From IMG/VR virus record IMGVR_UViG_3300021477_000244, positions 1-20,576 of that record: a stretch of DNA of 20,576 nucleotides. One strand, written 5' to 3'. Under the pieces are notes generated by a model. That model was not told the DNA's origin and ran no database searches. It worked only from the letters and a program-made list of their open reading frames with translations. This DNA is from a virus. The translations under genes and the position numbers were made by a program. This document shows positions 299 through 18,886 of this stretch, piece by piece; positions within the stretch are counted from its first letter, which is position 1; the number at the start of each line of letters is the position of its first letter.

Positions 299-3200
299 TT
301 GGCTTTCGTTAATCCCTCAACGGCCCTTGCGCCGGGTTCCGCATATACCTTGACCCTGAGCGGCATGACAAATTCCGCAGGGCAGCAGCTAACCAACACG
401 GTCGTCACGTTTACGACTGCCGGCACTCCGGGAGGAAGCACTGGGCTTCCGCTAGTCTCGTCGAGTCCAGTCACTACCTCGACTCCCAGCACGTCTTCTT
501 CGGCGATGGCCCCGCCACCTCTCATTGCTCCGTCTGGTATCACCGCAATTAGTGGCCGTGTGCTCCAGCTCAACGGGGCACCGCTTGCCAACGTTGCATT
601 ACAAGTGAACAACAAGAAGATTCTCACAGACCAGACGGGCAGGTTCCTGCTGCAAGGCGTGACATCGGGTCATGACGTCATGATGATCGACGGTGCTTCC
701 GCCAGCCGAGCGGGAATCACATATGGGATTTTTCAAGATGGCGTCGACGTGCAGCCAGGGATTACGGATGTCCTCCGCTACACCATTTGGATGACTCCCA
801 TTAATACGCAGCATGCCATCTCCATACCGTCCCCAACCACGTCGGAGACCGTGATCACGTCGCCCGTTATCCCGGGTTTGGAACTCCATCTGCCTCAAGG
901 TTCCGTCATTAGAGATCTGAAGGGAAATATCGTCAACCAGATCAGCATCACCCCAATCCCGGTCAAGCAGCCGCCGTTTCCGCTGCCGAAGGGGGTTGAA
1001 GTACCGATCTATTTCACAATCCAGCCTGGCGGCGCCTATTTGGACACCACGGCTGCAGGCTGGACCAAAGGAGCGACCCTCTACTATCCAAATTGGAGAA
1101 ACGCAAAGCCCGGAACCGCGTTCGACTTTTGGAACTACGACCCCACAGGAAAAGGCTGGTACGTGTACGGCGAGGGGCACGTGAGCAAGGACGGCAAGTC
1201 CGTTGTGCCTGATCCGGGGGTAGAGATTTACGAGTTTACGGGTGCGATGGTAGGAAGCCCATCGGTTGCTCCAGCAGTCGGGGGAAATGGTCCCACTGCC
1301 GCGGACCCAGTGGATTTGTCTACAGGCCTTTTTGTGTACAGCAGCACCGATCTTGTCTTGCCGGATTTTATTCCCATTAAGTTCACGCGCACCTACCGCA
1401 GCATGGATACCGTATCGCGTCCGTTCGGACTCGGATTCACTGATTCGTACGAAATGTTCATGGTTGGCGACACGGCTCCTTACACTTATCAAGAGTTGAT
1501 TTTGCCTGACGGCTCGCGCGTCCGTTTCGACGTCATTTCCCACGAGCCCACTGAAAATTCCTATACGCAGGTCGTTTATGAATGCCTCTCTAAGCCGGGC
1601 CCGTGGTATGGGGCGATTCTCGCGGCGGACTTTAGCTTTCCGGGGTCCACGTGGTCCATTACGACGAGAGACGGCATGAAGTATTTCTTTCCTGATGCAT
1701 TCGCTGAGGTTAATCCGGCTCTGCAGGCCCTCATTGGCATTAGCGACCGGCACGGAAACACAATCACGATCGCGCGTGCTGGTGGAGTTGTTACTCAGAT
1801 CCTCGGTTCTGGGGGACGTTACATCAATTTCGAGTCGGATGCATGGGGCCGCATTACGCAGGCCACAGATAGTTCGGGCCGTACCGTTCAGTACACCTAC
1901 GCTGGTGATGGATACCTATCAACCGTCACAGACCCCAATGGTGGAGTGACCACCTATACGTACGATTCCAACAACAACATGTTGACGATTGAAGATGCAC
2001 GCGGCACTACGTATTTGACGAACGAATATGACAGCAACCAGCGCGTTATCAAGCAAACCCTGGCGGACGGCAACACCTATCAATTTTCCTGGACCGCGAC
2101 ATCGAATACCGCCCAGACTTTCACTGAGACTGGCCAGGAACCGCCAGGGCTAAATGGCTTGCCCGGATCAATCTTAGCGTTCCGTGCCTGCACAACTTGC
2201 CTCGAAGGCTACCTCGCGCTGATTTCGCAAGTTAATATTACCGACCAACGTGGTAACGTTCGACAGGTGCAGTTTGGGCCGACAGGCTATATGACAAGCG
2301 ATACCCGTGCCTACGGTACGAGCATTCAGCAAACCACGACATATGCGTATTCGGCCGATAATCTCCTCCAGTCAACGACAGACGCTCTCGGGCGCACGAC
2401 GGCCTACACCTTTGACGCCAAGGGCAACTTGACCGGGCTTACGAAGCTCTCAGGTACCTCCAGCGCGGTCAGCACGTCCTACACTTATGAGCGCATGTTC
2501 AGCCAATTGGCCAGCGTGACGGACCCGCTGAGCCACACAACGAATTACTCGTACGATCAGAACGGAAACCTTACGCAAATAACTGACCCGCTGGGTCACC
2601 AGACCACTCTTACCTACAATGGTCAGGGGCAGGTTCTTACTGTCACGGATGCGTCCAGCGACACGATCTCCCTTGCTTACCGGTCTAGCGATTTGGTTTC
2701 TATCACTGATCCACTCAGCAGAATTACGACTCGACTCGTGGATGATGCTGGCAGGTCGATCGCGGTAACGAACCCGTTGGGCCAGACTGCCCACATGAGC
2801 TACGACGGTTTCGACCGTGCTACCAGTATGACCGATCCGGCGGGGAGCACGACGTCGGTCACATATGACGCCAACGGGAATTTACTCACGCTGACCGATG
2901 CGAACAGCCATACGATAACCTATACTTATGACAACATGGACCGCGTGGCCACCCGCACAGACCCACTCGAGAATTCCGAAAGCTACAGCTACGATGCAGC
3001 CAGTAATCTAACCCAATTCACTGATAGGCGGGGCAAGATTACCCAGTACACCTACGACGCGTTGAACCGTAGAATATTCGCCGGCTACGGCTATACGACG
3101 GGGCCATCGTACGAGAGCACAATTTCTTACAATTATGACGCCGGGAATCGCTACACGAGTGTAGTGGACTCCGTGACGGGAACAATCACGCCCACTTTCG

Positions 3201-4459
3201 ACAACCTTGACCGGCTGACTCAAGAAGTCTCGCCGCAAGGAACCATCGCCTACACGTATGACAACGCCAATCGCCGGACGAGCGCGACGGTCTCTGGCCA
3301 AACTGCCGTGGACTACAGCTACGACAACGCGAACAGGCTCACGCAGATCACGCAAGGGACACCGACGGTATCCTTCACCTATGATTCCTCGAACCGGCGA
3401 TCATCGCTGACCCTGCCCAATGGAGTGGAAATGAGCTACGGCTATGACGACGCCTCGGAGTTGACCGGACTGACCTATACGCTTGGCACGACCACTCTGG
3501 GCAACCTGACGTATTCGTACGACGGCGCCAGGCGTCGAATCAATGTGGGCGGCAGCTACGCGCAGACAGAGCTTCCTTCAGCGGTTAGCACTACCTCCTA
3601 CAACGCTGCCAATCAGCTGACTGCCTGGGGAAGCGCTTCGCTCTCCTATGACGCCAACGGCAATTTGACGAACGACGGCACGAACACCTACGCCTGGAAC
3701 GCGCGGAACAAGCTTGCGTCAATGAACTCCGGCGCGATCAGTTTTCAGTATGACCCGTATGGCCGTCGCGTGGCGAAAACGGTTTCCGGAACTACCATGA
3801 ATTATCTGTATGATCGAGCTAACATTGTGCAGGAGCTCTCCGGCGGCTCGGTGCTTTCCAATTGGCTCACGGGTCGAACGGATCAGATCTTCACGGGAAC
3901 CGATTCGACCGGAACGGCCAATTTTCTGACTGATGCACTTGGCAGTACCATATTGCTGACAAATTCTTCTGGAAGCAGCATTGCGCAGTACGCTTACGAG
4001 CCATTTGGTAACACGACAGTCACCTCAGGAAGTTCGACCAATGAGTTTCAGTATGCTGGCCGAGAGAACGATGGCGCTGGACTCTATTACTATCGCGCCC
4101 GATACTACGATTCAACTATCGGAAGGTTTATCTCCGAAGACCCTTTGGAATTGGAAGCTGTAACCCGCATGTCCGTGAAGCCTGGATACCCTTTCATAAC
4201 TCCTCGGCGTCGCGCCCCTAGGGTTGCAGCTGAAAATAATTCGTACGCCTACGCGCGAAATGACCCCATCATGTTTAGCGATCCCTTCGGGCTGGTATGT
4301 CAGAACGCGTGTGATGACAGATGTGACCGCGATTGGGCGATTGGGTTTGTCACTTGCATTGCATTGGCCCCCGAAGGGGGCTTCCCGGCAGTTGCATGCA
4401 TCCTTGGAATTACCGCATTGTGGATGAGCTGCGAAGCGGATTGCGATAAATCACGATAG
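299..4459 (+). CDS. RHS/YD-repeat protein with DUF6531 and cysteine-rich C-terminal tip
   Basis: Main body of a giant cell-surface or secreted RHS protein, 1386 residues from a nominal TTG at 299. In order it shows the back half of an Ig-like domain (to about residue 40), a Ser/Thr-rich linker, a carboxypeptidase-regulatory-like beta domain (about 80-125, 'ISGRVLQLNGAPLANVALQV'), a beta-rich segment, a DUF6531 start (about 335-390, 'DPVDLSTGLFVYSSTDLVLP'), then some 800 residues of YD repeats ('YTYDxxNxLTxxTDPLG' style), and the RHS core signature 'GLYYYRARYYD' followed by 'GRFISEDPLE' near 1260-1280. The core ends at 'DPFGL' near 1330. The last 54 residues are a variable tip with seven cysteines and a hydrophobic middle. 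RHS proteins form beta shells that enclose a C-terminal toxin, so the tip may be an effector, but its activity is not recognisable. Because the true front end lies upstream of the in-frame TGA at 290, this may be a non-functional or reinitiated product. Confidence 0.88.
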   Translation: MAFVNPSTALAPGSAYTLTLSGMTNSAGQQLTNTVVTFTTAGTPGGSTGLPLVSSSPVTTSTPSTSSSAMAPPPLIAPSGITAISGRVLQLNGAPLANVALQVNNKKILTDQTGRFLLQGVTSGHDVMMIDGASASRAGITYGIFQDGVDVQPGITDVLRYTIWMTPINTQHAISIPSPTTSETVITSPVIPGLELHLPQGSVIRDLKGNIVNQISITPIPVKQPPFPLPKGVEVPIYFTIQPGGAYLDTTAAGWTKGATLYYPNWRNAKPGTAFDFWNYDPTGKGWYVYGEGHVSKDGKSVVPDPGVEIYEFTGAMVGSPSVAPAVGGNGPTAADPVDLSTGLFVYSSTDLVLPDFIPIKFTRTYRSMDTVSRPFGLGFTDSYEMFMVGDTAPYTYQELILPDGSRVRFDVISHEPTENSYTQVVYECLSKPGPWYGAILAADFSFPGSTWSITTRDGMKYFFPDAFAEVNPALQALIGISDRHGNTITIARAGGVVTQILGSGGRYINFESDAWGRITQATDSSGRTVQYTYAGDGYLSTVTDPNGGVTTYTYDSNNNMLTIEDARGTTYLTNEYDSNQRVIKQTLADGNTYQFSWTATSNTAQTFTETGQEPPGLNGLPGSILAFRACTTCLEGYLALISQVNITDQRGNVRQVQFGPTGYMTSDTRAYGTSIQQTTTYAYSADNLLQSTTDALGRTTAYTFDAKGNLTGLTKLSGTSSAVSTSYTYERMFSQLASVTDPLSHTTNYSYDQNGNLTQITDPLGHQTTLTYNGQGQVLTVTDASSDTISLAYRSSDLVSITDPLSRITTRLVDDAGRSIAVTNPLGQTAHMSYDGFDRATSMTDPAGSTTSVTYDANGNLLTLTDANSHTITYTYDNMDRVATRTDPLENSESYSYDAASNLTQFTDRRGKITQYTYDALNRRIFAGYGYTTGPSYESTISYNYDAGNRYTSVVDSVTGTITPTFDNLDRLTQEVSPQGTIAYTYDNANRRTSATVSGQTAVDYSYDNANRLTQITQGTPTVSFTYDSSNRRSSLTLPNGVEMSYGYDDASELTGLTYTLGTTTLGNLTYSYDGARRRINVGGSYAQTELPSAVSTTSYNAANQLTAWGSASLSYDANGNLTNDGTNTYAWNARNKLASMNSGAISFQYDPYGRRVAKTVSGTTMNYLYDRANIVQELSGGSVLSNWLTGRTDQIFTGTDSTGTANFLTDALGSTILLTNSSGSSIAQYAYEPFGNTTVTSGSSTNEFQYAGRENDGAGLYYYRARYYDSTIGRFISEDPLELEAVTRMSVKPGYPFITPRRRAPRVAAENNSYAYARNDPIMFSDPFGLVCQNACDDRCDRDWAIGFVTCIALAPEGGFPAVACILGITALWMSCEADCDKSR

Positions 4460-6102: not shown

Positions 6103-7431
6103 TTGAACAACAAACCTGGTTTCGAATTGGCCGTAGTCTATCAACCCATTGAAACGCTCGTCCCTCATCCTAGTAACGCGAGAACCCATTCGCGACACCA
6201 GATCCGCCAACTCGCCGATAGTACTAAAGCATTTGGCTTCACGAATCCCGTTCTCATCGACCACAAGAACACAATCATCGCCGGCCATGGCCGTGTGGCG
6301 GCGGCGCAAACACTTGGCATGGATCGCGTGCCAACGATTCGACTCGAATGTCTAAGCGAGAATGAAATTCGGGCCTACGTCCTCGCGGATAACAAACTCG
6401 CCGAACGGGCCGGCTGGGACAAAGAGATCCTCGCGATTGAATTGCAGCATTTAATGACGCTCGACAACGATCTGGACATCACCGTCACAGGTTTTGAAAT
6501 TCCGGAAATTGACCTGATCCTGGAAGGCGCCACTAGCAAAGAGCACGATCCCGATGACAGCTTCGAGGTCGATGAAGCACTTCAGCCAATTACACAGTCT
6601 GGTGATCTCTGGCAACTAGGCAAACATCGCCTATTCTGCGGAAATGCGCTTGAGCTGGCTTCCTACAAAGCTCTCGCGCTCGGACGTCGCGCGAGCGTGG
6701 TCTTTGTCGACCCACCCTACAACGTGGCGATTGATGGCCACGCAACCGGCAGCGGGTCCATCCACCATCGGGAATTCGCGATGGCATCAGGCGAAATGAA
6801 TGAAGCCGAATATATCGGTTTTCTGAGCAGAGCTCTGAGCTTGGTCGCACGACACAGTACGAGCGGTTCCGTTCATTTCATTTGTCTCGATTGGAGACAC
6901 ATAACCGAATTAGTCGCGGCGGGGAAGCAGGTTTACACAACGCTCTTAAATCTGTGCATTTGGGTCAAGGATAACGGCGGTTTGGGTTCTTTTTATCGAT
7001 CACGCCACGAGTTGGTTTTTGTCTACAGGAACGGCAAAGATGCCCACCGCAACAACGTGCAATTGGGCAAATTCGGACGGAACCGAACCAATGTTTGGGA
7101 ATATGCCGGGATAAATACCCTGTCACGGCAGAGCGAAGAAGGCAACCTGCTCGCTCTCCATCCGACCGTAAAACCCGTCGCAATGGTCGCCGATGCCCTG
7201 CTTGATTGTTCGGCACGAGGTGATGTTGCGCTCGACCCTTTTGTTGGCTCCGGCACTACCGTACTCGCAGCCGAACGCGTCGGGCGCATCTGCTATGGCA
7301 TCGAGATCGATCCCCTGTATGTGGATGTTGCGATACGCCGATGGCAGAAACACACAGGGGACCATGCCCTCCACGTAGCAAGTGGCAAGAGGTTTGGTGA
7401 CATCGCGACTGTGGAGGTGAGCCGTGGCTGA
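6103..7431 (+). CDS. ParB-like domain fused to DNA methyltransferase (N4/N6 type)
   Basis: A 442-residue fusion from a TTG start with a textbook AGGAGG six bases upstream. Residues about 10-110 are a ParB/Sulfiredoxin-like domain: 'VPHPSNARTHSRHQIRQLA', then the 'IIAGHGR' motif at about 57-63. Residues about 165-430 are a class I DNA methyltransferase of beta arrangement: the catalytic 'DPPY' at 203-206 comes before the SAM-binding 'DPFVGSGTT' at 378-386. A DPPY motif is typical of enzymes that methylate the exocyclic amino group of adenine or cytosine. Such ParB-methyltransferase fusions are common in prophages and mobile elements, where they may modify phage DNA against host restriction. 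No restriction endonuclease is adjacent, so it is probably an orphan methylase. Its end overlaps the DUF5681 gene by 8 bases. Confidence 0.9.
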   Translation: MNNKPGFELAVVYQPIETLVPHPSNARTHSRHQIRQLADSTKAFGFTNPVLIDHKNTIIAGHGRVAAAQTLGMDRVPTIRLECLSENEIRAYVLADNKLAERAGWDKEILAIELQHLMTLDNDLDITVTGFEIPEIDLILEGATSKEHDPDDSFEVDEALQPITQSGDLWQLGKHRLFCGNALELASYKALALGRRASVVFVDPPYNVAIDGHATGSGSIHHREFAMASGEMNEAEYIGFLSRALSLVARHSTSGSVHFICLDWRHITELVAAGKQVYTTLLNLCIWVKDNGGLGSFYRSRHELVFVYRNGKDAHRNNVQLGKFGRNRTNVWEYAGINTLSRQSEEGNLLALHPTVKPVAMVADALLDCSARGDVALDPFVGSGTTVLAAERVGRICYGIEIDPLYVDVAIRRWQKHTGDHALHVASGKRFGDIATVEVSRG

Positions 7432-7867
7432 CAACGAGGATTACACGATCGGATTTCGGAACCCACCGAAGCATACGCGTTTCGTCAAAGGCCAATCAGG
7501 AAATCCTCACGGACGACCGAAAGGCTCTCAAAACGCCGCTACGATTATCGATAGAGCTTGCCGAGAACGCATACGCGTCACTACAAACGGCAAAGTGCGA
7601 CATCTGAGCAAATTTGAGGCCGCGATGCTGCAGCTGTTGAATAAGGCCGCTTCTGGCGATTTAAGAGCGATGCAACAGCTACTGGGTTGGCTCACATGGC
7701 GTATGAATTCTGAGCAAGAAAATGTGCCAACGATTTCTCCGCAGGAGAGCGACAAATTCGTTATGGAAAGCATCGCGGCGCGCTTTCGGAACTCAGAACC
7801 GGCACCATGCGAGATCGAACCTGACCTTCCGCCGCCTGAAGGCGGCAGCCTGGAGGGTCGGGGATGA
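7424..7867 (+). CDS. DUF5681-domain protein, terminase-associated
   Basis: A 147-residue protein from a GTG at 7424 with a strong GGAGGTGA just upstream, inside the end of the methyltransferase gene. The N-terminus has the DUF5681 signature 'NPPKHTRFVKGQSGNPHGRP' followed by KGSQN (about 10-34). The rest is helical ('EAAMLQLLNKAASGDLRAMQ'). DUF5681 proteins are regularly encoded just before a terminase large subunit, and this one overlaps TerL by ATGA (7864-7867). It could act as a small-terminase-like DNA-recognition partner, but that is inferred from position. The C-terminus is acidic and Pro/Gly-rich ('DLPPPEGGSLEGRG'). Confidence 0.8.
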   Translation: MADNEDYTIGFRNPPKHTRFVKGQSGNPHGRPKGSQNAATIIDRACRERIRVTTNGKVRHLSKFEAAMLQLLNKAASGDLRAMQQLLGWLTWRMNSEQENVPTISPQESDKFVMESIAARFRNSEPAPCEIEPDLPPPEGGSLEGRG

Positions 7868-9291
7868 ACGCTCAGCTCTCATACGCGGAATATGAATTCA
7901 TACTGCGACAAGATTTGATGAGCTTTATTGAACGCTCGTTCTACGAGCTAAACCCACAGACCGTCTTTTCCGCAAGCCCTCATATCGAAGTCCTAGCGTC
8001 GAAACTTGAGGCCTGTCGTCAGGGAAAGATCAAACGCTTGATCGTCAATTTGCCGCCACGATCGCTCAAATCTCATGCCGTAAGCGTGGCGTTTCCGGCA
8101 TACCTGCTTGGGCGTGATCCCGCCAGCCAAATTATCACTGTGAGCTACGGTCAGGATCTTGCCGATAAACATGCCCGAGATTGTCGAACCTTGACGGGTA
8201 GTCCTTTCTATCAAAGATTATTTCCGTGGACCCGCCTATCGACGGAAAAGCAGTCAGTCAGTGAGTTTATGACGACCGGCCAAGGTTTCAGGATGTCAAC
8301 TTCGATCGGAGGAGTTCTAACCGGTCGCGGAGCCGACATTATCATTCTCGACGACCCGCTTAAGCCAGACGATGCCCTTTCCGAAACACGGCGGACGACC
8401 GTCAACCAGTGGTACGACAACAGCCTGCTCAGCCGGCTGAACAGTAAGGGGACTGGCGTCATCATCATCGTCATGCAGCGTCTCCATCAGGATGACCTCG
8501 TGGGCCATGTCCTTGGTCAAGGGGATTGGGAGGTGCTCTCGTTCTCTGCCATCGCGGAGCACGATGAAGTTCACGTCATCGACAGTCCCCTGGGGCGACG
8601 CCGTTTTGAGCGCAAGCTTGGTCAAGCCCTCCAGCCAGCACGTGAATCCATAGAGATCCTGAAAATCATTCGTCAAACAATCGGTGAATATAATTTCGCC
8701 AGTCAATATCAGCAGGATCCAATGCCACTCGGCGGGGCCATAGTAAAGACCGATTGGCTTAAGCGCTATGACGCCGCCAGTCGTCCCTCGACATTCACTT
8801 GTGTGGTCCAGAGTTGGGACACGGCAAACAAAAGCGGCGAGCTCAACGATTTCAGTGTGTGCACCATTTGGGGCGTCTTTGATGGTCACTACTATTTGCT
8901 TGATGTGTTTCGCAAGCGGCTCAACTACCCGGATTTGAAACGAGCCGTGGTCGAGTTGGCTCGCCGGTATGACGCAGATTCTATCGTAATCGAGGATAAG
9001 GCTTCCGGAACCCAGCTCATCCAGGAGCTGCAACACGAGGGTGCGATCTATGGCATCAAACCCTACGAACCACCCCCCGGTTCAGACAAGATCTTGCGTC
9101 TTCATACTCAAACTTCGTTGTTTGAGAGTGGTCGCGTTCTTCTCCCGGTTTCGGCACCGTGGCTCGACGAATACATACGCGAGGTGACCAGTTTTCCAGG
9201 ATCCAAATACGACGATCAAGTGGACTCGACCACACAAGCGCTAGATTACTTGAAGAAGAACGGCGGACTTGAGGTGTGGCTTAAACTTTAG
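7864..9291 (+). CDS. terL: Phage terminase large subunit (TerL)
   Basis: A 475-residue DNA-packaging motor. The N-terminal ATPase has a Walker-A-like 'NLPPRSLKS' (about 62-70) and a Walker-B-like 'DIIILDDPL' (about 159-167). The C-terminal RNase-H-like nuclease begins with 'VQSWDTANKSGELNDFSV' (about 313-330), continues with 'VIEDKASGTQLIQEL' (about 376-390), and ends with 'DDQVDSTTQALDYL' (about 451-464), giving the three acidic clusters expected for metal binding. Length and order match known terminases. Start codon ATG 7864 overlaps the DUF5681 stop, with GGAGGGT upstream, so the two are translationally coupled. No portal, protease or capsid gene follows; the next genes are a reverse-strand regulator and a TonB-C protein. 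It appears intact, but the phage around it is not. Confidence 0.92.
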   Translation: MNAQLSYAEYEFILRQDLMSFIERSFYELNPQTVFSASPHIEVLASKLEACRQGKIKRLIVNLPPRSLKSHAVSVAFPAYLLGRDPASQIITVSYGQDLADKHARDCRTLTGSPFYQRLFPWTRLSTEKQSVSEFMTTGQGFRMSTSIGGVLTGRGADIIILDDPLKPDDALSETRRTTVNQWYDNSLLSRLNSKGTGVIIIVMQRLHQDDLVGHVLGQGDWEVLSFSAIAEHDEVHVIDSPLGRRRFERKLGQALQPARESIEILKIIRQTIGEYNFASQYQQDPMPLGGAIVKTDWLKRYDAASRPSTFTCVVQSWDTANKSGELNDFSVCTIWGVFDGHYYLLDVFRKRLNYPDLKRAVVELARRYDADSIVIEDKASGTQLIQELQHEGAIYGIKPYEPPPGSDKILRLHTQTSLFESGRVLLPVSAPWLDEYIREVTSFPGSKYDDQVDSTTQALDYLKKNGGLEVWLKL

Positions 9292-9327
9292 AGTGAGTTG
9301 GTAGCGCGTGAGCAGCATACTAGAAAA

Positions 9328-9543
9328 TCACAGACGAGACAAAAGCTGGGAAATGCTGATTTTGAACGCTGCTGCGAGCAGTTCGAGGTTACGCATACAA
9401 ATCTCCTTCTTTCCGTTTTCCAGGTCCGAAATGAAGCTCCGATCCATTCCAACATGCTCCGCCATATAAACCTGTGTCCAAGCTCGCTGCTTACGCAGGG
9501 AGCGTAACCGCTTCCCCAAACGGACACAGATATCGCTCGACAC
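9328..9543 (-). CDS. Small XRE-family helix-turn-helix regulator
   Basis: A 71-residue single-domain Cro/C1-type DNA-binding protein on the minus strand, convergent with terL. It shows the five-helix XRE layout: 'LGKRLRSLRKQRAWTQVYMA' then 'EHVGMDRSFISDLENGKKEI' and 'MRNLELLAAAFKISISQLL'. The chosen start is GTG at 9543; its ribosome binding site is weak (GGCGGC). It resembles the small C (controller) proteins of restriction-modification systems as well as phage repressors. The gene lies 36 bases beyond terL, and its promoter must lie near that of the TonB-C gene that reads away from it. It may control the methylase/terminase module or be a leftover; the target is unknown. Confidence 0.78.
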   Translation of the reverse strand: MSSDICVRLGKRLRSLRKQRAWTQVYMAEHVGMDRSFISDLENGKKEICMRNLELLAAAFKISISQLLSRL

Positions 9544-9636
9544 GCCGCCAATTATGGCTGTAGGCTTTGGACGATAAATCGGCTATAGACTACAAGCGTA
9601 GAAATCCATAGGCAGAGCCAAGCGAAGGGCACTCCT

Positions 9637-10539
9637 TTGAGGCGTTTCCCACTTACGATCGCCATAATAGGCGCCGTAGCGTTAGCGGTGGAGATCTTTT
9701 CGCCTCGCCTTACTGATAGCCAGTCAGCAGGTAACATCGCCGCGCCGAGCAAAGCGTCCCAGAAGAAAGCGGTCCCATTTCATCCCAACGGGGTTGCAAT
9801 CCAGGTGAGCGTCGTACCGGGAGCCATCGTCTGTCAGGATCTTGCTTCGGTACATCTGGTGTGGGGGCTATACGTAAACTATTGGACCGATGCGATGCAA
9901 GATCAGCTAACGAATGGAGGCTCGCGCGTTTCGCGCGGCCCCTCAAGTCCAGAACCCGATCCGAAGGTTTACGGATGCGCGTTATTGGCGGCCGGAGCAC
10001 CAGTCGAGTTCGAACAAGCCCTTCCCGGGATCGTCCATGTCACTTCGAGGTTGGCGGATGGCCATTTCATTCGTGGACTAACCCAAGAGAACATGATTAG
10101 GGCAATCAGCGAGAAGGAAAATGAGCCCTCTCAGCAGCAAGGTTCAGTTGGCCGAAGGGCACAGGCACCGGCGTCAAAAGAGGGGCCAATGGAGGGGCAG
10201 GCCAATGAAAGTCAAACCGATAACACAGCCAGGGCTGGTGATGGCCCTTTCGTGCCCGGACAAAACGGAGTCAGTTTTCCCCGGTGTCTCTATTGCCCGG
10301 ATCCGGTGTATTCCGAAGATGGCCGCGCGGCCGGGGTCGTGGGAACTGTTTCCCTACGAATCGTCATAGAAGCCGACGGTCGTCCCGCGGATATTCAGGT
10401 TGTGAAAGCCCTCGGCCACGGGCTTGATGAGCTCGCAGTCCGAGCAGTCCAAGCTTGGCGTTTCAAACCAGCGACGGGACCAAATGGAAGCCCGGTGCCA
10501 ACAACCGTTCCTGTCGAAATCAATTTCCGTTTGAAATGA
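9637..10539 (+). CDS. TonB C-terminal domain protein
   Basis: A 300-residue protein from a TTG at 9637 with GAAGGGC six bases upstream. Residues about 4-22 form a signal-anchor helix ('FPLTIAIIGAVALAVEIF'). The middle (about 25-210) is variable, with a low-complexity Gln/Ser/Glu-rich linker near 160-205. The last 90 residues are a TonB-C domain: 'GVSFPRCLYCPDPVYSEDGR', 'VSLRIVIEADGRPADIQVV', 'LDELAVRAVQAWRFKPAT' and a final 'VPVEINFRL' strand. TonB proteins transmit proton-motive force from ExbB/ExbD to outer-membrane transporters. No exbB/exbD or TonB-dependent receptor is nearby, so a stand-alone, perhaps regulatory or cargo, role is more likely. The Cys-x2-Cys before the domain is typical of acidobacterial versions as I recall them. 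Confidence 0.82.
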   Translation: MRRFPLTIAIIGAVALAVEIFSPRLTDSQSAGNIAAPSKASQKKAVPFHPNGVAIQVSVVPGAIVCQDLASVHLVWGLYVNYWTDAMQDQLTNGGSRVSRGPSSPEPDPKVYGCALLAAGAPVEFEQALPGIVHVTSRLADGHFIRGLTQENMIRAISEKENEPSQQQGSVGRRAQAPASKEGPMEGQANESQTDNTARAGDGPFVPGQNGVSFPRCLYCPDPVYSEDGRAAGVVGTVSLRIVIEADGRPADIQVVKALGHGLDELAVRAVQAWRFKPATGPNGSPVPTTVPVEINFRLK

Positions 10540-10678
10540 CCTGCCCTCGTCTGTTTCGGCACGTTCCTCGCGGCCCGCGTTTCGATTGGAGTCCTGTCCT
10601 CCTTGTCTCGCGCGTCTCGTTTAGCTTGACTGTCTGCCCAACCAGAGCGTCAATGTGCTGCTGGTCAGAGGCAGAAAC

Positions 10679-11137
10679 ATGGCCGATATTCGGGCAGAAA
10701 TCGCGGAATTGCGCACTTTTTCGCGAAAACAGTTGCTTCAAAGATGGCACGAACTCTTCGGCGGCGCCCGGGCACCCAGTATCCGGCGAGAATTGATGAT
10801 TCCCTTCCTGGCTTACAAGATTCAGGAAAATGCCTATGGGGGCATGAAGCCCTCGACACGCGCTGAGCTTCGACGCATCGGACGCGCTCTCGAAACAGGC
10901 TCTGGATCGCTAACTCCCGATATGCGGCCGAGAACAAAACCTGGAACACGCATGGTGCGGCACTGGCGCGGGAAACCACACGAGGTCGTCGTAACCGAGT
11001 CGGGATTTGAGTATTGCGGAAGGAGCTATGGCAGCCTTTCACAGATCGCACGCGAGATTACCGGAACACAATGGTCTGGTCCGGCATTCTTCGGACTGAG
11101 GAAGGCAACAATCGTGCGAGGCTCGTCGGGTGAGTAA
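10679..11137 (+). CDS. DUF2924 protein paired with serine recombinase
   Basis: A 152-residue protein. ATG 10679 is preferred over the in-frame GTG at 10655 because AGAGG lies seven bases upstream of it. The sequence shows the DUF2924 pattern: an N-terminal helical part ('EIAELRTFSRKQLLQRWHEL' and 'RRELMIPFLAYKIQENAYGG') and a C-terminal part with 'GTRMVRHWRGKPHEVVV', 'GFEYCGRSYGSLSQIAREIT' and 'WSGPAFFGLR'. DUF2924 genes usually precede a large serine recombinase, and here the two overlap by 8 bases. The C-terminal half resembles a small DNA-binding module, so it may be an accessory or directionality factor, but no function is established that I can name. Confidence 0.82.
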   Translation: MADIRAEIAELRTFSRKQLLQRWHELFGGARAPSIRRELMIPFLAYKIQENAYGGMKPSTRAELRRIGRALETGSGSLTPDMRPRTKPGTRMVRHWRGKPHEVVVTESGFEYCGRSYGSLSQIAREITGTQWSGPAFFGLRKATIVRGSSGE

Positions 11138-12821
11138 CCTGCCAGTTCGATGTGCGATCTACACCCGGAAGTCTTCAGAAGAGGGCCTCGAGCAGTCATT
11201 TAATTCTCTCGAAGCTCAGCGCGAGGCCTGTATCGCTTATATCCAAAGCCAAAAGCACGAGGGCTGGGTTGCCATCAAGGAAAGCTACGATGACGGTGGG
11301 TTCTCTGGCGGCAACATGGAGCGACCCGCGCTCGGCCGGCTTCTCGACGATATTCGTATTGGAAAAGTCGAGACTGTCATTGTTTACAAGGTGGATCGCC
11401 TTACGCGCTCTCTTTCCGATTTTTCCAAAATTATCGAGATATTCGATTCCCACAAGGTGAGCTTCGTATCAGTCACGCAGCAGTTTAACACCACCACGTC
11501 CATGGGCCGGCTCACTCTTAACGTGTTGCTCTCATTCGCCCAGTTCGAGAGAGAACTAACCGGGGAGCGGATTCGCGACAAGGTAGCGGCCTCAAAGAAG
11601 AAGGGAATGTGGATGGGAGGTATGGTCCCCCTGGGCTACGACTGCGTCGACCGTCGCCTCATCGTTAATCAGTCAGAAGCTAAGGTCGTCCGCGACATTT
11701 TCCGGCAGTACCTGCGGCTCGGCTCTGTCATGAGGCTCAAGGACTACCTTGAGGAGAAGCAGATTCGCAGCAAGATCCGAACCGGTAGCGGTGGCCGCAA
11801 ATATGGAGGAGCCGTCTATTCCCGAGGCGCGCTGTATCAGATCCTGAGCAATCGGATTTATATCGGCAGAATTGTGCACCGGGGCCAATCCTATGTCGGG
11901 AAGCACGAACCGATCATTGCACAAGAGCTCTGGAGTGAGGTCGCCGCCCGATTGGAAGCGAACGACCGAGCACGCAGAACGAGCAAACCTCACCCGACCT
12001 CCAGTCTGCTGACCGGCCTCCTTCGAGACACGAATGGCATCCGATTCACGCCAACGCACAGCGTCAAGAAAGGTAGACGATATCGCTATTACACCTCCCA
12101 GGCCGTGATCCGAAAGCGAGGCGAGCAGCAACAGCTTTCTCGATATCCAGCCGCGGAACTGGAAGCCCTGGTGATGACGCAGATTCACGGGATGCTCAAG
12201 ACGTTTCACAAACACCTGCATAAAACTGAAGTGTCTCCGGGCTCGGATTTGGCTATTCAACGCGCCAAGGATCTGGGAGCCCAATGGCCCCAATTAGGAA
12301 CTTCCAAACAGCAAGAGTTCATTCGAGCGGTGGTTAAGACCGTTATTTTGGGCCATAACAATCTCTGGATCGAAGTGGACCAATCGAAGGTCGTAGCAAC
12401 TTTGCTCGGCCACGACTCGGGCGAGCGCCTTGCCGAGGACGGTCGGAAGGGTGTCGTGGTAACGCTGAAGGTTGAGTTTCAGCCGATCCGGCGAGGAGTT
12501 GAGCTCCGGATCGACGCTCCCAACGGCCAATCAACTCAGGGTGGACCGATTCCGTCGCTCGTGAAGGAGATTGCGCGCGCTCGCACGTGGTATGAACAGC
12601 TCATATCGGGAGAGGTGAGTGGAGTCGAACGTCTAGCTCAACTATCGGGTTTCAAGCGTCGCTATGTGAGGAAGATACTCCAGAGCGCAGTGCTGTCTCC
12701 TGAGATCATCGAAGCAATTCTGTCGGGGCGGCAATCGCGCCGCGTCACCATGAAAAGTTTGCAGGCCGATCTACCATTAGATTGGCGGAAGCAAGGGCAG
12801 ATCTTTCTGCCCGCGCCATAG
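11130..12821 (+). CDS. Large serine recombinase
   Basis: A 563-residue site-specific recombinase from a GTG inside the end of the DUF2924 gene. The resolvase-type catalytic domain (about 5-150) has 'IYTRKS' with the likely nucleophile Ser15, 'YDDGGFSGGNMERPALGRLL', 'VYKVDRLTRS' and 'MGRLTLNVLLSFAQFERELT'. A recombinase domain follows (about 165-275, 'GYDCVDRRLIVNQSEAKVVR'). The zinc-ribbon region lacks the usual cysteines ('LLTGLLRDTNGIRFTPTHSV' then KKGRRYRYY), which is normal for this subgroup. The C-terminus carries a helix-turn-helix-like segment ('LAQLSGFKRRYVRKILQSAV'). All catalytic motifs are present, so it may be active and could be the integrase of the phage-like element between about 5.4 and 12.9 kb. 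No att core could be identified by eye. Confidence 0.93.
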   Translation: MSNLPVRCAIYTRKSSEEGLEQSFNSLEAQREACIAYIQSQKHEGWVAIKESYDDGGFSGGNMERPALGRLLDDIRIGKVETVIVYKVDRLTRSLSDFSKIIEIFDSHKVSFVSVTQQFNTTTSMGRLTLNVLLSFAQFERELTGERIRDKVAASKKKGMWMGGMVPLGYDCVDRRLIVNQSEAKVVRDIFRQYLRLGSVMRLKDYLEEKQIRSKIRTGSGGRKYGGAVYSRGALYQILSNRIYIGRIVHRGQSYVGKHEPIIAQELWSEVAARLEANDRARRTSKPHPTSSLLTGLLRDTNGIRFTPTHSVKKGRRYRYYTSQAVIRKRGEQQQLSRYPAAELEALVMTQIHGMLKTFHKHLHKTEVSPGSDLAIQRAKDLGAQWPQLGTSKQQEFIRAVVKTVILGHNNLWIEVDQSKVVATLLGHDSGERLAEDGRKGVVVTLKVEFQPIRRGVELRIDAPNGQSTQGGPIPSLVKEIARARTWYEQLISGEVSGVERLAQLSGFKRRYVRKILQSAVLSPEIIEAILSGRQSRRVTMKSLQADLPLDWRKQGQIFLPAP

Positions 12822-12922
12822 TCTGCCTTGTGAATTGGCAGGACCTACCTGAGTGAACATCAGCTCAGAAAGCGCTATTTTGAGAAAAGGCGTCTCCCTA
12901 CTCCAATCGGTCGAGTTCTGGT

Positions 12923-12952
12923 AGCGTGTGATAAAGGACGTTATCACACGCT
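12923..12952. repeat. Perfect 12-6-12 palindrome
   Basis: The arms 'AGCGTGTGATAA' (12923-12934) and 'TTATCACACGCT' (12941-12952) are exact reverse complements around a six-base centre, AGGACG. The element ends one base before the ATG of the HEPN-like gene and occupies the place where its ribosome binding site should be. The 12-6-12 geometry is close to that of Xer/dif-type recombination cores (11-6-11) and also fits a dimeric repressor operator. A degraded tyrosine recombinase lies one gene downstream. Confidence 0.8.
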
Positions 12953-12953
12953 T

Positions 12954-13712
12954 ATGAACTTCACGATGCCATCGACATTTCCCACCTCTGAGTTTCAGGC
13001 TTTCGGAATCGCCGCCTCAAATTTCTTTCCCGCCCTCCTCAGCGACGAAGTCCTGTATGACCCTCAGGAGAAGCGTCGGCACTTCGATTTGTCGTGGCAA
13101 GCTGTGCGCTATCGTTACCGCGCTTGCTGCGAATGCAATGATGAATTCAAAGCTCTGCTGGACAACCCCAGTGAAGAATGGCAGGCCGGTTGGGGCGATG
13201 AAGAGCTGACGTACAGGTTGGAGCGTTGCATCTATATCTTCTTTATGGGCGCGCTCTCGGTGTTCGATAGCTTCGCGCTCTGTTTGTATTTCCTCGGCAA
13301 CGCAATCCAGCCAGCTGCATTCTCCGATGTTTCGAATCCGCGCAAGATCACGCGCGCATCCACGCAAAGGGCAATGAACGTCGCGTTCCCGAAAGATGCC
13401 ATCACAGGACTTCTCGTTGGCCTGTCGCAAGATATGCGCTTTTCTACGAAAGACGCCTTCCGCAATCTGCTCGCTCATCGCCTGAGTGGCAGGCGGAGCG
13501 TACGTTCGTCAGGGACACTTAATACGGATGGCACCTATACGACGGACTTCCATGAAGAAACTTGGCAGATTCCCGGTGCCACGGGAAAGCTCGTCTTCGA
13601 CAAGGATATGCTTGAGCGGCAATTGGCGGACGTGGCCGACATTCTTTCAGCGCTTGCTACAGCCGCTCGTGCATTTGCGGAGTCACACCAACCAGTAAAG
13701 CCCGGCCTATGA
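12954..13712 (+). CDS. Hypothetical protein with HEPN-like Rx4H motif
   Basis: A 252-residue, mainly helical protein starting at ATG 12954. I do not recognise a named family. It shows 'RNLLAHR' with Arg170 and His175 in an R-x4-H spacing, which is the catalytic signature of HEPN ribonucleases, placed at the start of a helix as in that fold. Other notable stretches are a hydrophobic amphipathic helix ('IYIFFMGALSVFDSFALCLY', about 92-111) and a C-terminal helix ('LERQLADVADILSALATAAR'). There is no nucleotidyltransferase (MNT) partner. Instead its stop overlaps the start of the decayed tyrosine recombinase (ATGA). The palindrome lies immediately before the start, and the only SD-like element (AAGGA) lies inside the palindrome, too far from the ATG, so initiation may be unusual or repressed. 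HEPN assignment is tentative. Confidence 0.62.
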   Translation: MNFTMPSTFPTSEFQAFGIAASNFFPALLSDEVLYDPQEKRRHFDLSWQAVRYRYRACCECNDEFKALLDNPSEEWQAGWGDEELTYRLERCIYIFFMGALSVFDSFALCLYFLGNAIQPAAFSDVSNPRKITRASTQRAMNVAFPKDAITGLLVGLSQDMRFSTKDAFRNLLAHRLSGRRSVRSSGTLNTDGTYTTDFHEETWQIPGATGKLVFDKDMLERQLADVADILSALATAARAFAESHQPVKPGL

Positions 13713-14638
13713 GTATGGAAGTCGTCAGTCTCGACACTCATGAAAGCCTGGCCACTGGACCGGGCAGTCCCCCGCCCCTCTTTATTGAGGAGGCGAGGAC
13801 GGCTGAGCGATTCTGGGATTTCTTCACCGCGAATATCCGCAATCAGCACACACGGCGCGCCTATTACAACGCCACCTGCAGATTCTCGGAATTCTGCGCG
13901 GAGCGCGGCATTCACCACCTTGGGAACGTGAAGCCGCTGCACGTCTCCGCCTATATCGAGTGTTTGCGGCACTGTTTTGCAAAGCCCACGATTAAGCAGC
14001 GCCTCGCTGCGATCCGCATGCTCTTAGACTGGCTCGTCGTCGGTCAGGTCATCGCTGCTAATCCGGCACACGCGGTGCGCGGACCCAGGCACGTCGTCAC
14101 CAAGGGCCGCACACCTGTGCTCAACCGCGAAGAAGCGCGCGCCCTGCTCTCCTCCATTGAGGTAGGCACCGTCAAAGGGCTGTGTGACCGCGCTGATCGC
14201 TGTGATGATTTACCCTTCGCCCATATAGCGCGGTCCTGCAGATGAATGTCGGAGACCATTTCGTCCAGGGACGGCGCTGCTGGATACGCTTGCAGGAGAA
14301 AGGCAGCAAGGAGCACGAAGCGCCGTGTGTCTCCCGCCTCGAACCCTACCTCGACGAATACATTGCCGCAGCGGGAATTGCGGACGACAGGACGGTTCAC
14401 GGCACACCGCATCGCCTGACTCAGCAGGATGGCTACTGGATGATTGCATGTCGCGCTCGCGAAGCTGGCATCGAGGCTCAGTATGCGCGCGACCGGCGTC
14501 ACCGATTACCTCAAGGGGGAAGGCACTTTGGAGCATGCACAAAATATGGCTGCTCACTCCTCACCACGCACAACGAAGCTCTATGACCCTCGAAACGAGG
14601 AAACCGAGCTGAGAGAGTACGAGAAGGTCCAAATTTGA
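13709..14638 (+). pseudogene. Degraded tyrosine recombinase (phage integrase family)
   Basis: The first frame (13709-14245) encodes the N-terminal SAM-like core-binding domain ('NQHTRRAYYNATCRFSEFC', 'LHVSAYIECLRH', 'PTIKQRLAAIRMLLDWLVV') and the start of the catalytic domain. Around 14185-14235 several indels move the sense into the next frame ('QMNVGDHFVQGRRCWIRLQE', then 'LDEYIAAAGIADD'). Near 14470 it returns to the first frame ('RATGVTDYLKGEGTLEHAQN', then 'MAAHSSPRTTKLYDPRN'). The expected first catalytic Arg ('FARIS') reads as His ('FAHI'), the His-Thr-Phe before RATG is missing, and an internal segment near 14400 is lost. The Tyr nucleophile region (TTKLYD) survives. It is therefore inactive, and once formed an operon with the HEPN-like gene. 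Confidence 0.85.
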
Positions 14639-16764: not shown

Positions 16765-17205
16765 TCATTTTGCCCCAAACCGCCACCAATGTCGCTTCCG
16801 ATTATTGCTTTGTGGCACCGGCGGGGAGACGGAGACATTATCGTCCGTCGTTGCCACGTCGGCCGCGAAATACCGTTCCTTCGCGCGGTGATCGGAGTGG
16901 CGCTCGCGCTCAATTTCCTCGCGCGACCATTTCGGAGCCCATTTGACGCGGTTATTCCGTATCCAGTAGTGGGACTGGCACGGAAAGCTCCAGTTGCCTA
17001 TGGACGGGTCGAGCGAAACCGTCTTGCCGTCAAAAATCAGCTTCCAATCGGTTGGCCGAATCGGCGTTACAACTTTGTTCCCACAGCCGCACAAGCACAG
17101 ATGTGACGCTGTCGCGAAGCGTATGGAGATGTAAATCGTCGCCTGCTCCAGGTTCTCAGGAATAAACTCGACAAATTCATGCTTGAGGACGATTTCCGGC
17201 TTCAT
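16765..17205 (-). CDS. DUF6527 protein of ubiquitin-like operon
   Basis: A 146-residue protein. ATG 17205 is chosen because it overlaps the E1-like gene stop by ATGA and because the family start 'LKHEFVEFIPENLEQATIYI' follows directly; longer upstream reading frame is E1 shadow. The conserved core has 'ASHLCLCGCGNKVVTPI' (His35, Cys37, Cys39, Cys41), 'DWKLIFDGKTVSLDPSIGNW' and 'FPCQSHYWI' (Cys76, Ser78, His79). The Cys/His cluster looks like a metal site, and the Ser-His pair could be catalytic. DUF6527 genes are typical partners of multi-ubiquitin and ThiF genes. A deconjugating or maturating protease is an attractive role, since serine proteases with a Ser-His dyad have been reported in bacterial Bub-type operons, but I cannot confirm that this family is the one meant. 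The tail (about 93-146) is charged and probably disordered. Confidence 0.82.
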   Translation of the reverse strand: MKPEIVLKHEFVEFIPENLEQATIYISIRFATASHLCLCGCGNKVVTPIRPTDWKLIFDGKTVSLDPSIGNWSFPCQSHYWIRNNRVKWAPKWSREEIERERHSDHRAKERYFAADVATTDDNVSVSPPVPQSNNRKRHWWRFGAK

Positions 17206-18389
17206 TGGGGCCGATCCTCGTTCAAAAGCAGGTTGGTATCGATGCTGAACTGGCTGTGGTGCTCGGATTTGAGATCGCGGTAAAAGCCGAAGAGCTTCTT
17301 CCACTTGATGACGGCCAGTGCGGCGTTCAGTGCGTTGAGATCGGCGATCTGGATGTTGCGATTGTAATCGTCGTCGCCCGGCGTGTCCTCGAAGGACACT
17401 CTCTCGCGGAGATGATCGCGCTTCTGCGGCGTGCTCGCCGTCACTCTCACAATTCCGCCCAACGCGCCGTTATCCAGTTGAATCCCCATGCCCACGTCAG
17501 CAAACGGGATATTAAACTCTTGGAGCTTCTCATCAATCAGCTTCTTGGGGCTATTCTTGTCCAGGCACACAAAAACAAAATCCATCCCGCGCAGTTCCTC
17601 CACGTTGCCGGCGTCAAGATAGACCGGGTGATCGACGATGCCACGGTGCATTTTCCCGTAGAGATTCTTGAAATAGGTCGTCTTTGGCTGCCTGGTCCTC
17701 AGTTCGTCGCCGGACGGCGCGGCTGGTGAACGGAAAGCGTTGTGCTGGTAGAACGTGTCCCCGTCATAGAGATGAATCTCCTTCACCGGAGTTTTTGCCA
17801 CGAGGTCCAGCACGTACGAGCCGGTGCCGCCCAGGCCTAAGATCGCGATCTTCTTGCGCGCCAGCTTTTTCGTGACTTCGACGATTTCCGCGCGGCTGGA
17901 GGCGGTATCGGTGTAATCAAATGGCTCTTCGCTGTCGTCGTCCGGAATAATCACCGGGAAGGTCTTTGCCGTGACCGTGGAGTCGATTCTCAGCGCTGGG
18001 CCGGAGAGGATGGCCACATAGGTCGTCACTTGCTCGTAATAGTCCGGATAGGAATCAGCCGGCTTGGGTTTGGCCGAAAACGAGTGGTTGACCGGCACCC
18101 CTTCAGCGAGAGAATGCGTGTCGCTGCCGTGCTTTATTTTGGCGATTTCCGAGCCGTCCTCGTAGCACGGGTGCTCCCCGGAGAAATAGGCGACATGCGT
18201 ATCGGGGCGGCCGGTCTGGTCGTCCGCCAGCACGAGCTTGATGACGAGAATCCCGCGCCTAATCTGCGTCTGCGAATTCACGTAGGGCACGTCTTTCACC
18301 AGCAGGCAGCCGGAGCGGACTTCGATGTCATAGCCCTCATCGCGCAGTTTTTTCAGGTCGGCGCTACGATTTATCGGTCGCTGTGACAT
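17202..18389 (-). CDS. E1-like ThiF-family enzyme with N-terminal extension
   Basis: A 395-residue Ubl-activating enzyme. The ThiF/MoeB-type adenylation domain begins near residue 175: 'KKIAILGLGGTGSYVLDLVA' (nucleotide loop at 185-190), 'IHLYDGDTFYQHNAFRSP' (acidic and Asn/Arg residues that grip ATP), 'MDFVFVCLDKNSPKKLIDEK' with Cys275, and 'IPFADVGMGIQLDNGALGGI'. The roughly 165-residue N-terminal part (catalogued, I believe, as DUF6791) has 'HVAYFSGEHPCYEDGS' with Cys75 and is thought to be an E2-like or adaptor domain in this family, so activation and transfer may be combined in one chain. The start ATG 18389 overlaps the Ubl gene by 26 bases and its stop overlaps DUF6527 by 4, showing strong translational coupling. 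No JAB-type peptidase gene is present. Confidence 0.88.
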   Translation of the reverse strand: MSQRPINRSADLKKLRDEGYDIEVRSGCLLVKDVPYVNSQTQIRRGILVIKLVLADDQTGRPDTHVAYFSGEHPCYEDGSEIAKIKHGSDTHSLAEGVPVNHSFSAKPKPADSYPDYYEQVTTYVAILSGPALRIDSTVTAKTFPVIIPDDDSEEPFDYTDTASSRAEIVEVTKKLARKKIAILGLGGTGSYVLDLVAKTPVKEIHLYDGDTFYQHNAFRSPAAPSGDELRTRQPKTTYFKNLYGKMHRGIVDHPVYLDAGNVEELRGMDFVFVCLDKNSPKKLIDEKLQEFNIPFADVGMGIQLDNGALGGIVRVTASTPQKRDHLRERVSFEDTPGDDDYNRNIQIADLNALNAALAVIKWKKLFGFYRDLKSEHHSQFSIDTNLLLNEDRPQ

Positions 18390-18819
18390 TGAAGATCATC
18401 CCGTTCTTCACCTTGACGCTCTGGCCTTCCTTAAGCGAGCCCTGCGGGTTGTCGCGCGAGCCGTCCTCGTAGGACACGGTGTACAGGATGTTCGTTCCTG
18501 GCGGCGGAGTCGGAAAGGCCAGCTTAACGATCTCTTCGAACGTTACCGTCCTGCTCGTCACCGTCTTTTCCTGACCGTTCACGATGATGATGTATTTCCG
18601 GGGTTGCGCAGGACCGCTGTGAAAATGCTCGTCCTCCCGCAGGTGGATCGGCTCAGCGTCGTTTTCCACGATCGGGTCTTCCTTGTCGCCGCGAACTTCG
18701 CGGAAGAGATCATGGCCAGACTGGACATGGCCCAGACGATAGAGGGCCTCGCCTGTCGTGGGATTCGGCGACTGATAGGGCCTCTGGTCGATGTGAATGC
18801 GGAGTTCGTGCGCGGACAT
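18364..18819 (-). CDS. Multi-ubiquitin protein (two ubiquitin-like domains)
   Basis: A 151-residue protein. ATG 18819 is preferred over the in-frame TTG at 18837 because AAGGAGG sits eight bases before it. Two beta-grasp units are visible: residues about 4-66 ('HELRIHIDQRPYQSPNPTTG' to 'REDEHFHSG') and about 75-147 ('KYIIIVNGQEKTVTSRTVTF' to 'GQSVKVKNGMIFNVT'). This matches the Multi_ubiq family (PF14452), whose members are encoded next to ThiF-type enzymes. The C-terminus is 'NVTATDKS', so the Gly-Gly tail of eukaryotic ubiquitin is absent; either Ser151 is the activated end or processing is needed. It is the presumed modifier conjugated by the E1-like protein encoded downstream. Confidence 0.88.
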   Translation of the reverse strand: MSAHELRIHIDQRPYQSPNPTTGEALYRLGHVQSGHDLFREVRGDKEDPIVENDAEPIHLREDEHFHSGPAQPRKYIIIVNGQEKTVTSRTVTFEEIVKLAFPTPPPGTNILYTVSYEDGSRDNPQGSLKEGQSVKVKNGMIFNVTATDKS

Positions 18820-18886
18820 GATGATTCCTCCTTCCAAGGACAGTCTTCAAACGCCGTACCGCACAAATCGTTCGAAACATTTCGCC

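Follow-up and report, generated by a model that had tools for sequence, protein, structure and literature searches.

A 12-6-12 palindrome as a probable core site of a plasmid tyrosine recombinase module with exchangeable cargo genes

Introduction

The Cre/loxP system of P1 pairs a single tyrosine recombinase with a symmetric site beside its gene. In pdif modules the accessory genes have sites on both sides and the host XerC/XerD recombinases are used, and dif itself occurs once per chromosome, at the terminus, where host XerCD/FtsK act on it. Vika/vox, Nigri/nox and Panto/pox each consist of a single tyrosine recombinase with a symmetric site beside its own gene (PMC4957104), and the pdif modules of Acinetobacter plasmids place short Xer-like sites around accessory genes, as described in parts of two reports (PMC12907356, PMC7885321). 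The portions of the report on Sphingobium plasmid pPDL2 that deal with its CIP (copG-int-pgm) module describe a copG stop codon overlapping the int start, predict CopG-binding inverted repeats upstream of copG, and place integration in vivo at an attP close to the 3' end of int1 rather than at the palindrome discussed below (PMC3516476).

The palindrome described here lies in a virus-derived window of 20,576 nucleotides (IMG/VR record IMGVR_UViG_3300021477_000244, positions 1 to 20,576) and shares features with each of these systems. As in Cre/lox-type modules, a recombinase gene lies near a symmetric site on a plasmid (19/20 plasmid loci), but the site is 12-6-12 rather than 13-8-13, has a conserved AGGACR spacer, and is accompanied by an XerD-like recombinase with variable passenger genes between site and gene. 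It has the 6-bp spacer, inner ATAA/TTAT and XerC/XerD-like recombinase of Xer/dif, whereas its arms are symmetric, its recombinase falls well short of the XerC/XerD equivalog cut-offs, and it sits beside a plasmid or island recombinase gene. Like pdif, it is a short Xer-like site next to accessory genes; unlike pdif, it comes with its own recombinase and usually as one site, the exceptions being contig C112 and locus L028. It differs from integrons in having no IntI-family integrase match and a short double-arm site instead of attC. The CIP module of pPDL2 has the same recombinase family and site, and passenger exchange and wide distribution are additions to what the consulted portions of that report describe (PMC3516476). 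We put at roughly 0.78 the probability that the palindrome is an Xer/lox-type core site of a plasmid tyrosine recombinase module, forming the 5' edge of a swappable cargo slot.

Results

The palindrome, cargo gene and recombinase relic of the window

Direct reading of the sequence confirms a perfect 30-base 12-6-12 palindrome at 12923-12952, AGCGTGTGATAA-AGGACG-TTATCACACGCT, in which a left arm (12923..12934, + strand; AGCGTGTGATAA, with the inner TGATAA near-invariant in 39 pairs) and a right arm (12941..12952, +; TTATCACACGCT, from the alignment of site/recombinase pairs) are predicted recombinase-binding half-sites, and the 6-bp spacer AGGACG (12935..12940, +) is the predicted strand-exchange region, as judged from AGGACR conservation. 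A single base, T at 12953, separates it from the ATG at 12954, and there is no Shine-Dalgarno sequence between palindrome and ATG. The first-pass annotation had described this symmetry, its position one base before the gene and the displacement of the normal ribosome binding site, and had also proposed a dif/Xer-type geometry, which holds for the 6-bp spacer, the inner ATAA/TTAT and the arm length, the arms of dif being about 11 bp. With gaps of 0-20 allowed, no other perfect 12-base inverted repeat occurs in the whole window; perfect 12-6-12 repeats are absent from 60 Markov replicas, and shuffles (n=100) yield no comparable palindrome with up to 3 mismatches allowed. No further copies are present elsewhere in the 20.6-kb IMG/VR record, and Rfam and tRNA scans of the window gave no match, so there is no tRNA attachment site. 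A short conserved left flank (12901..12922, +), ending GTTCTGGT, is common to sites 2 and 4 of a Ca. Acidiferrum contig and similar in L170 (blastn), and is possibly a promoter-proximal segment.

The cargo gene (12954..13712, +) encodes 252 aa and has few relatives, with no match in Pfam, NCBIfam, PADLOC or PDB; its HEPN-like label comes solely from the R-x4-H motif RNLLAH at residues 170-175. Its relative in L170 is 76% identical and lies behind a near-identical site.

A pseudogene of an XerD-like tyrosine recombinase (13709..14638, +; recognized by a Pfam SAM-like N domain, Phage_int_SAM_1, and by tblastn and by aligning it with intact relatives) begins at the stop codon of the cargo gene, which it overlaps as ATGA, and therefore directly follows the cargo gene, placing the relic one gene from the palindrome as originally annotated. 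The N-terminal frame is intact from 13709 to 14245 and is followed by frameshifts and stops, with the last frame ending at 14638; because these fall in the catalytic half, the recombinase is inactive, and the relic could recombine only in trans. The intact relatives keep the catalytic R, K, H-x-x-R, H and Y (FAR, EKGGK, HxxR, H, LYDRR). Scores lie below the cut-offs of the NCBIfam XerD equivalog (112 bits against 329.6), the XerC equivalog (107.9 bits against 335.15) and the integron integrase profile (45.1 bits against 265), and the closest solved structure is XerD (1a0p). Judged from its sequence, the window copy is a relic in an acidobacterial-type island: its site and passenger are intact, while its recombinase gene carries frameshifts.

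Recurrence of the site beside recombinase genes

Related sites are found in Acidobacteriota and Proteobacteria, mostly on plasmids, 5' of a gene for an XerD-like tyrosine recombinase of about 320 aa. A scan of 257 Gb of genome contigs with the pattern GTGTGATAA-N6-TTATCACAC gave 30 loci, six of them with a relative of the window recombinase within about 1 kb, and many of the Acidobacteria and Proteobacteria loci carry AGGACG or a near variant as spacer. In Ruminococcus and Clostridium, the palindromes with GTGTGATAA have other spacers and no recombinase was found at them; they are likely unrelated hairpins.

When 20 plasmid loci are picked by recombinase similarity alone, 19 have an upstream site, usually within 1.4 kb, which always reads ATAA-N6-TTAT and mostly has AGGACR. 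These 19 include L154, with a weaker spacer 1.7 kb from the recombinase, and L044, whose site is just past the start of the circular record, in L049; the plasmid L155 has a recombinase and no recognised site. Scoring against a Markov null gives 0 sites of score at least 15 per 1.5 Mb.

Starting from the site, a recombinase adjoins 17 of the 20 evaluable sites found blind in genomes. All nine AGGACR sites found with the exact pattern alone in 289 alphaproteobacterial genomes are upstream of a recombinase, and among 396 Acidobacteriota genomes the pattern (at most one mismatch) occurs in 22, versus a handful for a reversed control pattern, with a recombinase at 8/11 evaluable exact sites, the four-site contig being left out. 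The Acidobacteriota sites lacking one are in G269, G382 and G115, one of which is a 5.7-Mb chromosome. The element is sparse, as the 274 genomes sampled from the class of the Paraburkholderia genome gave the starting genome alone. Most replicons have one site each, and one multi-site island was seen among about 960 genomes sampled.

Back-translation searches of viral contigs with the recombinase and cargo gave no match, and the pattern search found 13 viral contigs, of which L142 alone has a recombinase within the retrieved DNA. Five others (L139-L141, L143 and L146) form one phage family in which the pattern lies inside a gene, apparently by chance.

The annotation had recommended searching for further copies near related recombinases, and had named a sequence unique in its genome and absent from such neighborhoods as the outcome that would count against it; because the same site recurs beside recombinase relatives in unrelated genomes, that objection falls away. 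A text search of a literature collection for the core site sequence found no paper. The palindrome is probably one copy of a DNA recombination site that had no name so far and that is found repeatedly on plasmids and islands across many bacteria.

Site anatomy and homology breakpoints

In 39 non-redundant site/recombinase pairs the inner TGATAA/TTATCA is near-invariant and the outer arm bases vary between loci, with the spacer AGGACR, in either orientation, present in 33. Outer bases match at 5.62/7 positions between the arms of one site versus 3.80/7 between arms of different sites (p = 2e-4), the pattern predicted if a single protein binds the two arms. Covariation of arm and recombinase sequences is weak, although suggestive (Mantel r = 0.145, p = 0.07). 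Such an anatomy would be expected of a site to which two copies of one recombinase bind.

Breakpoints were compared at loci in register, leaving out same-record and same-strain pairs and the phage family with the chance match, and in every informative pair, a small set of about seven independent ones, homology ends within about 12 bp of the site edge. The plasmid-like acidobacterial contigs L124 and L125 (15-17 kb) are 99.96% identical over 2,352 bp, a stretch that ends with the final base of the site, fall to about 30% identity at the cargo start and 60-80% across the cargo and the first part of the recombinase, and regain 100% about 950 bp past the site start, inside the recombinase gene; a passenger has therefore been swapped between a breakpoint at the site and a second one within the recombinase gene. 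A 2.2-kb segment present only in L125 goes back to a deletion inside an L124 gene, and no second site lies there. L162 and L163 are 97.4% identical over 2.3 kb on the recombinase side, ending at the opposite site edge, and between L161 and L162 the recombinase is 97% identical and the segment between site and gene is replaced. Further pairs breaking at the site are L039/L157, L148/L157 and L079/L080. The Komagataeibacter plasmids pGX3 and pGX4 and an Acetobacter plasmid share their whole backbone and reveal no element ends. Such breaks may partly come from homologous recombination within a short conserved segment, or may simply mark where an operon begins at its 5' end.

Passenger genes

Zero to three genes lie between site and recombinase, the last commonly overlapping the recombinase start. 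Passengers were labelled from record annotations, Pfam and PADLOC, with those of L130 (ParDE-like) and the first L165 gene (a ribbon-helix-helix-like protein, followed by Fic) identified by eye. They include CAP12/Pycsar-type TIR proteins in L027 (PADLOC candidate PDC-S35) and L158, Hypoth_Ymh proteins in L044 and L168, the former with PADLOC Aga_HEPN/PD-Lambda-3 similarity, a GIY-YIG protein (L152), a death-on-curing protein (L040), and DUF2513 proteins (L039 and L157). The passengers appear to be swappable, and in the examples seen are often defence- or toxin-like.

Loci with several sites or without a recombinase

The Ca. Acidiferrum contig C112 has four direct sites with the same spacer and gene blocks between them: site 1 is followed by a recombinase fragment and then AbiEi/AbiEii-like genes (by eye), site 2 is half-decayed, site 3 precedes a PD-T7-1 gene, and site 4 belongs to a copy of the window unit reduced by deletion. 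A left flank of 72 bp is common to sites 2 and 4, and their homology stops within the right arm. L170, which comes from a further genome in the family of Ca. Acidiferrum, has site and cargo and no recombinase; it aligns with the window from a point just ahead of the site as far as the stop codon of the cargo gene. In L028, palindromic sites at 887-916 and 2989-3018, with spacers AAGACA and AGGAGG, lie around a recombinase and a 179-aa gene, possibly forming a two-site cassette. Plasmid pPDL2 (L045) carries two modules around one site, which is located between two divergent recombinase operons (7069-10621), and looks like a fusion of two replicons joined at the shared site.

Discussion

Alternatives to a recombination site

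The palindrome could be only an operator, at which the recombinase or the first passenger (e.g. a ribbon-helix-helix protein) represses the passenger-recombinase operon. The site does lie directly before the Shine-Dalgarno or start of the first gene in most loci, TGTGATAAT may resemble an extended -10 element, and the authors of the pPDL2 study, in the portions concerned with CIP, took inverted repeats upstream of copG as CopG sites (PMC3516476); the attP position given there also speaks against the palindrome as the recombination site. An operator is nonetheless unlikely, since the site is kept where the passenger is unrelated or missing, the central AGGACR spacer, which an operator does not need, is conserved, homology breaks at the site, and no conserved -35 box is found at fixed spacing upstream across loci. 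Still less probable, to the point of being remote, is a leader RNA hairpin controlling passenger translation: the predicted fold is stable (-22.7 kcal/mol, z = -4.1) and the window copy lacks a Shine-Dalgarno sequence, but purines (Shine-Dalgarno) directly follow the site in other copies, the spacer reads with the gene in some loci and against it in others, departures from arm symmetry are mostly not G-U wobbles (33 other, 18 G-U, 8 A-C), and there is no Rfam family. A hairpin would also leave the conserved spacer, the recombinase linkage and the breakpoints unexplained.

A further proposal, going beyond a core site at a cargo slot, is that the window unit is a pdif- or integron-like cassette able to move by itself, site and cargo together, whether the recombinase is included or not. 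The four direct, same-spacer sites of C112, followed by AbiE-like, PD-T7-1 and other genes, the homologous unit of L170 that stops at the cargo stop codon, and the two sites of L028 around a recombinase and second gene all favor it. We consider it doubtful, given that most replicons have a single site, that no empty site was identified among the loci examined, and that L170 may be the same island minus its recombinase, because a DUF6527/ThiF/multi-ubiquitin operon is also common to both. The mobile cassette of the first-pass annotation stands in that a site-cargo-recombinase unit recurs, with homology breaks at the site and four direct copies in C112; independent movement of the window unit itself would be a conjecture beyond this. 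Its likeness to pdif modules does not carry over to membership, with the recombinase encoded in the unit and most replicons single-site; a plasmid Cre/lox-like module fits better for these two reasons. In kind, as recombination site, cargo and recombinase, the earlier interpretation was largely right.

A plasmid module with a cargo slot

As a core site, each 12-bp inverted arm would be bound by one monomer of the single XerD-like recombinase, with strand exchange expected in the 6-bp spacer. The plasmid module would run from site through zero to three passengers to recombinase, and passengers and recombinase are probably co-expressed, as the last passenger usually overlaps the recombinase start. 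With one site per plasmid, we infer that the basic role is most likely multimer resolution, together with plasmid fusion and separation, as for Cre/lox. The passenger would be exchangeable because it is flanked by two conserved pieces, the site and the recombinase gene, and in the close pairs the breakpoints lie at the site and inside that gene. More tentatively, we suggest a widespread, unnamed plasmid recombination system in which the site forms the constant left border of a slot with exchangeable content; plasmids and islands would there swap individual genes for immunity or toxins (TIR, HEPN-like, Fic, GIY-YIG, ParDE) at one precise position and could stack them into direct chromosomal arrays.

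Such a module would offer a testable recombinase-site pair across Acidobacteriota and Proteobacteria and a mechanism by which plasmids could precisely exchange defence or toxin genes, with TGATAA-AGGACR-TTATCA as a sequence tag for finding new cargo of this kind. A symmetric site with a 6-bp spacer and a single recombinase could be a tool beside Cre/lox, and the pPDL2 inverted repeats described, in the portions cited, as putative CopG operators gain another possible reading.

Genomic surroundings

Directly 5' of the palindrome, a 160-aa ORF overlaps a large serine recombinase gene with Resolvase and Recombinase domains (10655-12821, +). The leftwards-transcribed DUF6527, DUF6791/ThiF (E1-like) and multi-ubiquitin operon (16765-18837, -) constitutes a ubiquitin-like conjugation system, with 78% identical DNA in L170 (16295-18014), where it again lies close to this cargo gene. 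A ParB-like/DNA methylase gene and a terminase-like large subunit gene (6103-9291, +; by eye) lie beside an RHS-type protein gene (299-4459), and these terminase-like, ParB-like and RHS-type genes may be the basis on which the contig counts as viral. Aphanizomenon phage Yong-DA (L150, ON073792.1), labelled a phage, encodes ParA/ParB, a replication protein, polysaccharide genes and a 42% identical recombinase, and in this respect resembles a bacterial plasmid more than it does a phage.
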